Positions 38,542-42,841 of a stretch of 64,000 nt of DNA are shown one piece after another. Below the pieces are notes generated by a model that saw nothing but the letters and a program-made list of their open reading frames with translations, was not told the origin of the DNA and did no database searches. Source of the stretch: Rhodohalobacter sp. 614A (GTDB taxonomy: Bacteria > Bacteroidota > Rhodothermia > Balneolales > Balneolaceae); contig NZ_JAKEDS010000001.1 of NCBI RefSeq assembly GCF_021462415.1, forward strand, positions 1,026,273 to 1,090,272, written 5' to 3'. A program made the position numbers and the translations under genes. Each line of letters starts with the position of its first letter. The stretch's first letter is position 1.

Positions 38542-39225
38542 AAAATATGTATCTGTTTTCTTGAATAAATAATTGATAAAAAACTATATCAAATCAATCA
38601 TTTAAACAATTCTACTTTAGTCATCAATAACTAAACAGTTCGGGTTTGTAGATTGATTATTTTCTTATTTGTATGTACAAAACCTACAACAAAAAGGTTC
38701 CCCGGCAATCAAAAATGTCTGCCAGGGAGTTGGATGTAACAGAAGAATTTAAAAACAAAAAGGATTGCAAAATTCAGTTGGAATGCATTCTTCTGGGATT
38801 TATTTTCAGAGTGTTGTAGCAGGTCTGTGAATGAGTATCGGGCAACAGACCGGGGAAACAGTTAATGGGTACATTTGCTGCTTCGCCATTGAATTAAGGA
38901 GTTGTCGGAATTTACAGAATGGTTAAGCTGTTACTGCTACAAAAAGGTTCTGTTTTATAAGATGTAGACGAGTGATCCGTTTTAAAACAGTGCTTATACT
39001 GCTTTAGGGCAGTTTTTTAAAGGTTGATGAAGAGTATTTTCGTGAATGGAGGCATGAGGTTATGTCAAGGATTATGATTAACTGAAGTGATTAACTCTGA
39101 AGTAAAACTATTTAGATTGTAGAAATCAGATTGACGTAAATGCTTTTTTGATCATCAGCCACACGGCGGAACTGCCGCCGATTTGTAAATTGAAATTTTG
39201 ATCAAAAAAATGAAGAGGTATACCA
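38542..39225. other. Long intergenic gap (684 bases), possible small RNA
   Basis: No convincing gene. A 48-residue frame (38673-38819) has no recognisable sequence. Stem-loops occur at 38950-38990 (CTGTTTTA/TAAAACAG, exact) and at 38998-39018, where ACTGC-TTTAGG-GCAGT is followed by six T, like an intrinsic terminator with no coding gene before it. A short untranslated RNA ending near 39018 is possible. Confidence 0.4.
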
Positions 39226-40590
39226 TTGTCGTTTAATCAATTTCGACTGAGTTCTGATATCTTGAAGGGGTTGAATGATGTAAAACTTGAAAACCCCTCA
39301 TCCTTACAAAAGAAAATATTTAAGACTGTACAGCAGAAAAAAGATCTTGTCATAAACACCACGGTAGACGAAAACCCCGAGGTTGGCTATCTGATTTCGC
39401 TTCTGAATGAAATTTCGAAATCAGACAGAAGAGAGGGAACCAAGGCTGTTGTGCTAACTGCTACCAAAGAACGCGCCAAAGTTTTGGACGAATGGATTTG
39501 GGCAATCGGTTACCATGCATCCATTGAGAGCGCCTGTATGACGGATGATGGTAATCCCGAAGAGCAACTTTCTGCCTTGATGAAGGGGCCGGTAATTATT
39601 GTAGCTACTCCCGAACGGTTTTCTGATTTGCTGGAAAAGGGGCGAATTATTTTCAGAGAAGTACAGCAATTGATTGTTGACCAGGCTGAATTGATTGAGG
39701 ACTGGTCATCTATTGAGGGTGTGTCGAACCGGGTGATAGGAAATTGTCAGCGCATTTTTACGGCGGCCAAAGACAGTAAGGAGCTTCGTGAGGCTGAGAA
39801 TAAAATGCTGAACGAACCGGAGCTGGTGACTCTTTCAAAGAAAAAAACTGCCGAGCCAAAGTCGGAGTCTAAAGAATCCCAAAAACCGGCAATCACCAAA
39901 GATCTGACACAATATTATATCAATGTTCCGCCGAGATCCAAGATTTCCACATTGATGGCTCATCTCGATAATCACACTGCAGATTCAGTACTGATTTTTA
40001 CGGCGTCGAGAAAAACGGCCGACAGACTCTACAAAATTTTGAGAAAGAGTAACAAACGAGCCGTAAGTCTGCATGATAAAGTAGACAAAGATACTTTTAA
40101 CGAACGATTTGGACGGTTCACCTCCGGAAATGTACAACACATGATTGTAGGGCAAATGTCTGCCGGAGAGATTCCGCTGGATCATGCTGCACAGGTGATT
40201 AATTATGATGTTCCGGAAGATGTAAAAGAATACAAGCTTCGAGCCGATCTTGTTGGAAACGGGAAAGCAACGCGAATGGTCAGTCTTGTATCAAAGCAGG
40301 ATCGGAGTGATATTAACTCGATTTGCAAATCCCTGGGATTTGCGCCGGAAGAAATTCCATTGCCAAAAACCGTGAAAGACAAACTTTCCTCCCGCGATAA
40401 ATCCAAACCGAAGAGAGGGAAAAACAAGAGCCGGGGCAAGTCCAATCAGAAAAAGAAACGGTCGGCACGAAAGCTCAACGAACTGCCACGCCCTACTTTC
40501 GATCAGTTGGAGGGTGGCCGGTCTGGTAAAAAGAAAAAGTCCAAAGAGCAGTCCGGGATTATCGGTTTCTTTAAAAAGCTATTTGAGTAA
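39226..40590 (+). CDS. Degenerate DEAD-box RNA helicase-like protein (454 aa)
   Basis: Has the two RecA-like domains of a DEAD-box protein but not its catalytic motifs. The Q-motif region is kept (FNQFRLSSDILKGL, NPSSLQ). Motif I (AxTGxGKT) is replaced by VINTTVDENPEVG; Ia PTRELA reads TATKERA; Ib is near VATPERF; DEAD reads DQAE (residues 152-155); SAT reads FTAA; ARG reads SAG; HRxGRTGR is KLRADLVG. Domain 2 is well kept (SVLIFTASRKTADRL, AAQVINYDVPED). A lysine-rich tail follows (about 380-440). TTG 39226 is the start, with AGAGGT seven bases before it. ATP hydrolysis is unlikely; an RNA-binding or ribosome role is inferred. Confidence 0.8.
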   Translation: MSFNQFRLSSDILKGLNDVKLENPSSLQKKIFKTVQQKKDLVINTTVDENPEVGYLISLLNEISKSDRREGTKAVVLTATKERAKVLDEWIWAIGYHASIESACMTDDGNPEEQLSALMKGPVIIVATPERFSDLLEKGRIIFREVQQLIVDQAELIEDWSSIEGVSNRVIGNCQRIFTAAKDSKELREAENKMLNEPELVTLSKKKTAEPKSESKESQKPAITKDLTQYYINVPPRSKISTLMAHLDNHTADSVLIFTASRKTADRLYKILRKSNKRAVSLHDKVDKDTFNERFGRFTSGNVQHMIVGQMSAGEIPLDHAAQVINYDVPEDVKEYKLRADLVGNGKATRMVSLVSKQDRSDINSICKSLGFAPEEIPLPKTVKDKLSSRDKSKPKRGKNKSRGKSNQKKKRSARKLNELPRPTFDQLEGGRSGKKKKSKEQSGIIGFFKKLFE

Positions 40591-40928: not shown

Positions 40929-42044
40929 ATGAAATTTAACGTATCAAGCAACGATCTCAATATCGGACTCTCAGCCGTTATTGGTGCTGTTCCTACAAAA
41001 GCTACCCTGCCAATTTTAGAAACCATTTTATTTGAAAGTGAAGACGGACGCCTGAAGCTGACGGCGACGGATCTTGAAATATCCATCATCGAATATATTG
41101 ATGCTGACATTGAAGAGGAGGGGGCTGTTGCCATTCCTGCAAAACGATTGCAGGAAACACTGCGTCAACTGCCAAACATTCCGGTCTTTTTTGAAGTAGA
41201 TGAGGATCAGCACATTGAGTTTAAAACCGACAAAGGGAAGTATAAACTGGTAGGCGAAGAAGCTGATGAATTCCCGGAAATCCCAAATATGGATGGAGGT
41301 ACATCACTTTCCACGGAAACCAGGCTTTTACATCACGCTATTGACAAAACCATGTTTGCCGTTTCCACCGATGATCTTCGTCCGGCCATGATGGGCGTCT
41401 TTTTTGATATCGGAACCGAAGAAACCAAGTTTGTGGCTACAGACGGTCACCGGTTGGTTAAGTATGTGAACAAGAATTTTACCTCGGAATCGCCCTTGTC
41501 TTTTATTGTGCCGGATAAAGCACTGAATTTGATTTTTCGGGCTTTGGATGAGAAGACCTGCGATTTGGTTGTATCGGATGATCATGCCCAATTTAAAAGT
41601 GGCAGCACAATTGTGATCACACGCCTGATTAATGAGCAATATCCGAACTACGAATCGGTCATTCCAAGAGATAACGACAAAAGCCTGCTTATTGATAAAG
41701 ACCAGATGCTTGCCACGGTTCGCCGGGTTTCTGTTTTCTCAAGCAGCACAACACGCCAGATTCGGCTTAAGCTGGGGAACGACAAAATTACCATTCGTGC
41801 CGAAGACCTCGATATGAGCAGTGAAGCAAAAGAGACTCTTTCTTGCGAATATGGCGATGATGAAATGGAGATCGGTTTCAATGCAAAATATCTCGGTGAT
41901 GTTTTGAGTAACGTTGACGGCGGTGAAGCGAAATTTGAATTTTCTACTCCAAATCGTGCAGGAATCGTGAAACCGGCTGAAGAAGAAGACGGCGAACAGA
42001 TGCTGATGCTCGTGATGCCGGTGATGTTGAACAGCTATGCATAA
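40929..42044 (+). CDS. dnaN: DNA polymerase III sliding clamp, beta subunit
   Basis: The 371-residue processivity clamp that rings DNA and tethers polymerase III. Three repeated clamp domains of about 120 residues are seen: MKFNVSSNDLNIGLSAVIGAV at the start, FAVSTDDLRPAMMGVFFDIG opening domain 2, and YPNYESVIPRDNDKSLLIDK opening domain 3. It ends in a typical short tail (LMLVMPVML then NSYA). It is not next to dnaA or recF but is followed, eight bases on, by the SAM hydrolase gene. Confidence 0.96.
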   Translation: MKFNVSSNDLNIGLSAVIGAVPTKATLPILETILFESEDGRLKLTATDLEISIIEYIDADIEEEGAVAIPAKRLQETLRQLPNIPVFFEVDEDQHIEFKTDKGKYKLVGEEADEFPEIPNMDGGTSLSTETRLLHHAIDKTMFAVSTDDLRPAMMGVFFDIGTEETKFVATDGHRLVKYVNKNFTSESPLSFIVPDKALNLIFRALDEKTCDLVVSDDHAQFKSGSTIVITRLINEQYPNYESVIPRDNDKSLLIDKDQMLATVRRVSVFSSSTTRQIRLKLGNDKITIRAEDLDMSSEAKETLSCEYGDDEMEIGFNAKYLGDVLSNVDGGEAKFEFSTPNRAGIVKPAEEEDGEQMLMLVMPVMLNSYA

Positions 42045-42052
42045 ATCCATCA

Positions 42053-42841
42053 ATGTCTCGCATAATTACACTTACTACCGACTTTGGGTTGCAGGATCAT
42101 TACGTAAGTGTAATGAAAGCGGTGATGTTGGATATTGCACCGGATGCACGGTTCATTGATGTTTCCCACGAAATTCCCCCGCAAGATGTAATGGCCGGCG
42201 CGTGGGTGGTTCGGAATTCCGCACTTCTATTTCCACCTGGTACCGTACATCTTGTCGTTGTAGATCCGGGAGTTGGAACGGATCGCACACCGGTTGCCAT
42301 TCAAATAGAAGACCGCCTTTTTGTTGGACCTGACAACGGTATTTTTTCTTTGATTGGGGAAGATTACGAGTATAAAGCCGTAAAGCTGGAAAACGAAAAG
42401 TTCTGGCGAAAAAAACGATCCAACACTTTTCATGGCCGCGATATTTTTGCACCTGTAGCAGCCCATATTGCCAACGGAACGTCTTTGGAAGAATTGGGCT
42501 CGCCTCTCGAAAAAATAGTTACCTATCACTGGGCCATTCCCATATCAGATAAAGACGGAATTCAGGGATGGATTGTGCACATCGACCGATTTGGAAATTT
42601 GATATCGAATATTCCCTCATCTCTTATCGAAGAAACCATTGGAGATTCCCGCCTGAAAATTTATGTTGGAAATACCATTTTGGACGAAATTGTGACTACA
42701 TTCGGAGCCGTTCCCGATGGAGAACCAGCGGCCTACATCGGCAGTTCAGACAAACTTGAGATTGCCATCAATAAAGGAAATGCCCGCCAGATGCTGGGCG
42801 TTGAAAAAGGAGCGCAGGTTTCGATTGTGGTTCAGAAATAG
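42053..42841 (+). CDS. SAM hydrolase (SAM hydroxide adenosyltransferase, DUF62)
   Basis: A 262-residue protein of the family that splits S-adenosylmethionine into adenosine and methionine using water, related to chlorinases and fluorinases. Signatures: ITLTTDFGLQDHYVSVMKAV, FIDVSHEIPPQDVMAGAWVV, VVVDPGVGTDRTPVA with the Asp/Arg pair, and NTFHGRDIFAPVAAHI with His. It follows dnaN by eight bases. The family loop that marks halogenases was not assessed; hydrolysis is the likely activity. Confidence 0.88.
   Translation: MSRIITLTTDFGLQDHYVSVMKAVMLDIAPDARFIDVSHEIPPQDVMAGAWVVRNSALLFPPGTVHLVVVDPGVGTDRTPVAIQIEDRLFVGPDNGIFSLIGEDYEYKAVKLENEKFWRKKRSNTFHGRDIFAPVAAHIANGTSLEELGSPLEKIVTYHWAIPISDKDGIQGWIVHIDRFGNLISNIPSSLIEETIGDSRLKIYVGNTILDEIVTTFGAVPDGEPAAYIGSSDKLEIAINKGNARQMLGVEKGAQVSIVVQK

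Follow-up and report, generated by a model that had tools for sequence, protein, structure and literature searches.

A conserved DEAD-box pseudohelicase of the Balneolaceae with a structured, gene-specific leader RNA

The gene described here lies in a 64,000-nucleotide stretch of the genome of Rhodohalobacter sp. 614A (referred to below as the window) and encodes a DEAD-box pseudohelicase that is conserved across the family Balneolaceae and is not a decaying gene. The explanation that we favour, and consider fairly probable from the comparative sequence data, is that the protein was fixed early in Balneolaceae after duplication of a CshA-like helicase and that it serves as a scaffold or adaptor independent of ATP, its dose being controlled through the leader RNA. 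The covarying-hairpin leader with its near-invariant TTG start codon is a new finding beyond an earlier, sequence-only reading of the same gene. The positions of the relevant features are given in Table 1.

Table 1. Features of the pseudohelicase gene, its product and its leader in the window
Feature	Position	Strand	Basis
Leader hairpin CGGCGG-aactg-CCGCCG, upstream of start codon	39164..39180	+	Position and fold
Conserved leader element TAAATTGAAATTTTGATC	39186..39203	+	Near-invariant upstream of genus orthologues
Ribosome-binding site GAAGAGGT and TTG start	39212..39228	+	Start-codon conservation
DEAD-box pseudohelicase gene, 454 aa	39226..40590	+	Frame, domain matches, orthologues, dN/dS
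RecA-like domain 1, residues 1-205; no P-loop, DQAE for DEAD	39226..39840	+	AlphaFold pLDDT mostly >85
RecA-like domain 2, residues 227-390; INVPPRSKISTLMAHL, IFTASR, VINYDVP, xRA[ED]LVG, SLVSKxDxxDI	39904..40395	+	Invariant columns concentrated
Disordered basic linker, residues 391-418, net +13	40396..40479	+	pLDDT <50, charge count
C-terminal conserved motif LPRPTFDQLEGGRSG and terminal peptide GIIGFFKKLFE	40480..40587	+	Invariant residues

The frame (39226..40590, forward strand) is unbroken from its TTG start through 454 codons to the stop, as the sequence-only reading had reported. The product matches the Pfam families DEAD (6.8e-12) and Helicase_C (1.8e-10), and its top NCBIfam match is CshA at 123 bits, which does not reach the curated cut-off of 646 (NF053631). 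A canonical CshA-like paralogue from the same genome (locus L066; G000 contig C3:8287-9528) served as the reference for motif alignment. All catalytic motifs are intact in this paralogue, which also falls below the CshA equivalog cut-off (413.5 versus 646 bits). Relative to the paralogue, motif I is changed from AQTGTGKT to TTVDENPE, motif Ia from PTRELA to ATKERA, motif II from DEAD to DQAE, motif V from ATDVLARGID to VGQMSAGEIP and motif VI from HRIGRTAR to LRADLVGN, and the position of motif III falls within FTAAKD. The alignment upheld the earlier statements that motif I is gone and that DEAD reads DQAE; motifs V and VI are indeed replaced, although the strings previously quoted for them (SAG and KLRADLVG) were each one residue off.

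Residue retention was determined across 61 orthologues. The P-loop is lost in all 61, with its Gly, Lys and Thr positions retained in 0-15%, and motif I of active enzymes (Walker A, GxGKT) is absent from all full-length orthologues; an intact motif I, one of the results named beforehand as speaking against the proposal, was thus seen in none. Retention is similarly low for the motif II Glu (30%), the motif III Thr (11%, such that SAT is not preserved), the Arg, Gly and Asp of motif V (0, 2 and 16%, respectively) and the second Arg of motif VI (2%). The sequence replacing the P-loop differs among genera and is shortened in one clade, and motif II reads DQAE in the window genus and DEAH, DAAD, DELH, DEAQ or other variants elsewhere. 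Residues that persist are, in the Q-motif, the aromatic F (98%) and the Gln (95%); in motif Ib, the Pro (100%); in motif II, the first Asp (93%); and in motif VI, the first Arg (95%). The earlier claim that all motifs have been lost therefore holds for the catalytic motifs, but "all" was too strong in view of the Q-motif F and Q, the motif II Asp and the one motif VI Arg that remain. It is these residues that lend some credence to the idea that nucleotide is still bound or hydrolysed via a reorganised site. Set against them, however, is the depletion of the P-loop, the motif II Glu, the second motif VI Arg and the motif V Gly and Asp, together with a P-loop replacement that varies by genus, and we regard such a site as very improbable. 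The persisting Q-motif F/Q and motif II Asp nevertheless count against the favoured explanation, in that they leave some room for ATP binding by an unusual route.

Derived states have themselves become conserved. A Ser in motif IV is present in 61 of 61 orthologues, where the canonical paralogues have Thr in 100%; a Leu in motif VI is present in 57 of 61, where the canonical paralogues have Arg in 100%; and HRIGR of motif VI has become xRA[ED]LVG. In three very diverged orthologues of one genus (g5; L188, L189 and L190), the Gln of the Q-motif has also disappeared, as has the [ED]LVG signature, and the predicted fold and a VKR[LF]FKRLF tail are retained.

The classical RNA-contact residues, at positions chosen from general knowledge of the family, show a mean retention of 40% compared with 30% for ATP residues, and the motif Ia Thr/Arg, GG, motif IVa Gln and motif V Thr/Arg contacts are nearly absent. 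Given that the RNA-contact residues are eroded about as far as the ATP ones, the core probably does not bind RNA within the canonical cleft. The earlier suggestion that the protein is kept for RNA binding is thus not supported as far as the helicase core is concerned; RNA binding, if any, is more likely to reside on the basic C-terminal linker.

Pseudohelicases are recognised by criteria of sequence, structure and function (PMC9539457). Here, the catalytic motifs have been lost, and structure prediction indicates that the helicase fold has been retained. The AlphaFold model, obtained with the family alignment, shows both RecA domains with confidence and predicts disorder in the hinge and the basic tail; the mean pLDDT of the model is 81, and with a pTM of 0.47 the orientation of the domains is uncertain. 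When compared with VIA-align, RecA1 gave a Z of about 29 and an rmsd of 1.6 A over 201 residues against both eIF4A1/KANK1 (7ddx) and CshA (6aic), and the neighbours of the predicted fold in Foldseek and VIA-align were CshA, eIF4A, DDX6 and Dhh1. DEAD-box matches were again obtained with the predicted model of an orthologue that shares only 24-29% identity with the other family members. The presence of both RecA-like domains, asserted previously from the sequence, is thus borne out by a predicted fold that matches eIF4A, CshA and DDX6. In the Balneola/Gracilimonas clade (L036-L047, L191), the hinge between the RecA domains is expanded by repeats such as KLxEASVxVVLNPE, giving proteins of up to 673 aa; these repeats are absent from Rhodohalobacter and Fodinibius. 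A role in defence was considered and rejected, the best PADLOC match (DpdF; 8.9e-05, 19.4 bits) covering a generic RecA2 stretch only.

Nearly all invariant residues of the pseudohelicase lie in RecA2 and the C-terminal motif. The mean top-residue frequency is 0.69 for RecA2 versus 0.56 for RecA1, and this order is reversed in the active paralogue (0.65 for RecA2 versus 0.73 for RecA1). The C-terminal motif has the consensus LPRPTFDQLxGGRxG followed by GxxxFxKKLF, with P421, G434 and F453 invariant among 49 sequences, and a simpler version of the tail persists in the most diverged orthologues as well. This pattern of conservation fits surfaces of RecA2 and the tail that would be presented to partners. 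No other protein of the genome convincingly terminates in the FxKKLF pattern, and a docking motif shared with other C termini was rejected on this basis. In a test for a membrane-targeting amphipathic helix across 61 tails, the hydrophobic moment was marginal (median shuffle p 0.053); a MinD control tail also failed, such that the test is insensitive and counts neither for nor against such a helix.

The same data bear on whether the protein might instead be a stand-alone, ATP-independent RNA chaperone or RNA-binding protein, in which the basic tail would contact RNA and the RecA core would serve as a rigid body. The tail carries a net charge of +17 over residues 391-454, the last 64 of the protein, and a basic linker is present in all orthologues seen. 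However, the sequence of the linker drifts freely (mean top-residue frequency of 0.37), the conserved surfaces are those of RecA2 and the terminal motif, and the classical RNA contacts of the core are lost; we therefore consider this explanation rather unlikely. A further alternative is that of a competitive regulator, which would occupy the same docking site as the active paralogue by virtue of a common tail layout and so limit helicase recruitment. Most active paralogues, including those in other families of the order, have a basic linker and a short hydrophobic-basic C-terminal peptide (e.g. KGVWGIIKSFIPK) behind the core, and inhibition is a known role of pseudoenzymes (reviewed in PMC9539457). 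The two proteins nevertheless have tails of different sequence, each conserved in its own right; this could just as well reflect different partners, and competition of this kind seems to us decidedly improbable. The scaffold explanation accommodates the earlier proposal of a partnership with an active helicase, which is possible in view of the layout common to the paralogue and the pseudohelicase.

The distribution of the gene was established by searching 99 relatives with the protein, and the family, the order and a 394-genome sample of the phylum with a profile. About 80 of the 92 Balneolaceae genomes hold an orthologue with an open frame. In the profile search, 76 genomes reached scores of 360 bits or more, one genus contributed three divergent members at ∼295 and one further genome yielded an N-terminal fragment; among genomes at least 90% complete, 61 of 66 from Balneolaceae were above the profile threshold. 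No high-scoring orthologue was found in the rest of the order or in the phylum sample. When 84,980 genomes of named species were scanned, matches came solely from Balneolaceae (Rhodohalobacter, Fodinibius/Aliifodinibius, Gracilimonas and Balneola) or likely mislabelled MAGs, followed by ordinary helicases at ∼22% identity. A recognised copy was not found in several Balneolaceae genomes (e.g. G002, G031, G042 and G049), and the gene is thus not indispensable to all members of the family.

Pairwise dN/dS values range from 0.027 to 0.13, including pairs with unsaturated dS (0.18-0.77), and no internal stop was found in the listed orthologue matches. The ratio is thus not near 1, and the earlier view that this is no random pseudogene was confirmed by both results. 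Purifying selection of this kind supports a biological role for the pseudohelicase. A decaying pseudogene that happens still to be open has in its favour only the loss of the catalytic motifs; it is already contradicted by the open frames, the low dN/dS, the invariance of derived residues and the conservation of the leader RNA, and it is scarcely credible.

Phylogenetic analysis placed the orthologues in a single clade on a long branch (SH-aLRT 100). A sister relation to Balneolaceae's own CshA-like helicases was recovered with weak support (66.8), and a GYH signature at residues 95-97, common to the pseudohelicase and L066 and absent from the genome's two other DEAD-box paralogues, points in the same direction. 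The protein probably originated by duplication of a Balneolaceae CshA-like helicase. It resembles the CshA-like helicases, L066 included, in fold, in the layout of core, basic linker and short C-terminal peptide and in the GYH signature, and differs from L066 in being a pseudohelicase without catalytic motifs and only about 28% identical.

Ahead of the gene, the order secG-mscS-yedK recurs in most genera, and even the three most diverged orthologues have secG or mscS on their upstream side. Downstream, unlike upstream, gene order is not conserved. In several other genera (L137 4928-5908, L139 4901-5905, L141 4812-5810 and L154 4947-5900), a gene for a CPBP-protease-like membrane protein separates yedK from the pseudohelicase gene; it was not seen in the shorter gap of the window. 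At 40929-42841 of the window, dnaN and a SAM-hydrolase-like gene follow the pseudohelicase gene, an arrangement found in part of the genus only. The flanking genes are unrelated to RNA metabolism, and an operon partner was rejected as a guide to function, since secG, mscS, yedK, the CPBP-protease-like gene and dnaN give no functional link.

Analysis of the start region revealed constraint at the nucleotide level. Distinct orthologues start with TTG in 70 cases, GTG in 1 and ATG in 1, and codons 1-7 are nearly invariant as nucleotides in the window genus (top-codon frequency of about 0.9 versus 0.55 elsewhere). In other genera, counterpart hairpins of different sequence lie upstream of the gene. 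In the Balneola/Gracilimonas group the hairpin is followed by the element GATCTTTGAAAATTGAAC, the counterpart of TAAATTGAAATTTTGATC, which occurs exactly once per genome, at the pseudohelicase gene, in 8 of 8 genomes. Mean folding z-scores for the leader were -2.5 (23 sequences) and -2.9 (13 Fodinibius-type sequences), compared with -0.1 to 0.9 for the flanks. In the Fodinibius group, 7 of the 9 pairs of the hairpin are changed on both sides, 97% of cells are paired versus 37-40% with slid partners, and none of 500 shuffles reached the observed pairing or covariation score. A covariance model gave one strong match per genome, at the pseudohelicase gene, in 12 of 12 Fodinibius-group genomes (next best E 0.018). 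The window's own leader was not found by this model; its hairpin (39164-39180) and core (39186-39203) differ. The leader matches no Rfam family, and a hairpin enclosing the start codon forms in some species only of the window genus. Mimicry of rRNA, considered for the boxA/rRNA-leader look of the element, was rejected, as exact copies in 8 genomes occur at the pseudohelicase gene only and none of the three sites elsewhere with one mismatch coincides with an RNA recognised by Rfam. Translational control, often autogenous, is what a structured element confined to a single gene usually points to. The gene-specific leader and near-invariant TTG start suggest that this gene, too, is under translational control, which is perhaps autogenous because the element is unique to it.

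These observations can be accommodated by the following working model. A duplicated copy of a CshA-like helicase would have lost its ATP machinery early in Balneolaceae. The usual binding and hydrolysis of ATP would no longer be possible, in which case the protein would not unwind RNA. RecA2 and the C-terminal LPxPxxxxLxGG...FxKKLF motif would engage a protein partner, which might be the active paralogue or the complex to which it belongs, and the lysine-rich disordered linker would hold RNA. Dose would be set translationally at the leader and the weak TTG start, perhaps by the protein itself. A bolder version, which we think unlikely, has the pseudohelicase binding the hairpin of its own leader and serving as the non-catalytic scaffold for an RNA-processing complex that is specific to Balneolaceae and includes the active CshA-like paralogue.

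Among known systems, Utp25/Def is a pseudohelicase of the eukaryotic SSU processome with a DEAD-box-like two-RecA fold and vestigial motifs (PMC9539457). When compared by description, it shares with the Balneolaceae protein the two-RecA fold, a proposed history of duplication and divergence, selection and a charged disordered extension; it differs in being eukaryotic, in bearing an N-terminal extension, in being essential in yeast and in its role in pre-rRNA processing (PMC9539457). The Balneolaceae protein, by contrast, comes from bacteria, retains another set of residues and carries a conserved motif at its C terminus. Deinococcus radiodurans PriA is likewise a bacterial protein that has retained a helicase fold and lost ATPase and unwinding activity, and it binds DNA and DnaB; unlike the present protein, it is a replication-restart DNA helicase outside the DEAD-box family with no active copy beside it (PMC4504706). 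Synechocystis CrhR provides a precedent for an autoregulated bacterial DEAD-box gene (PMC3485376), and differs in being catalytically active by its family. The earlier description of the role as poorly described is fair for bacteria, the only pseudohelicases named in the literature searched being yeast Utp25 (PMC9539457) and Deinococcus PriA (PMC4504706). A search of mainly open-access literature turned up neither a bacterial DEAD-box pseudohelicase nor any paper that links Balneolaceae to RNA helicases.

Pseudokinases are numerous, and named pseudohelicases are very few in the literature searched. Generic DEAD and Helicase_C matches would lead to annotation of this pseudohelicase as a working helicase. 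The present example is bacterial and lineage-wide, the cell also contains an active paralogue for comparison, and ∼60 aligned orthologues and a regulatory leader specific to the gene are at hand; the use of the helicase fold after loss of ATPase activity thereby becomes directly testable. The example suggests that in Balneolaceae this fold has been re-used as a scaffold or regulator rather than as an engine.
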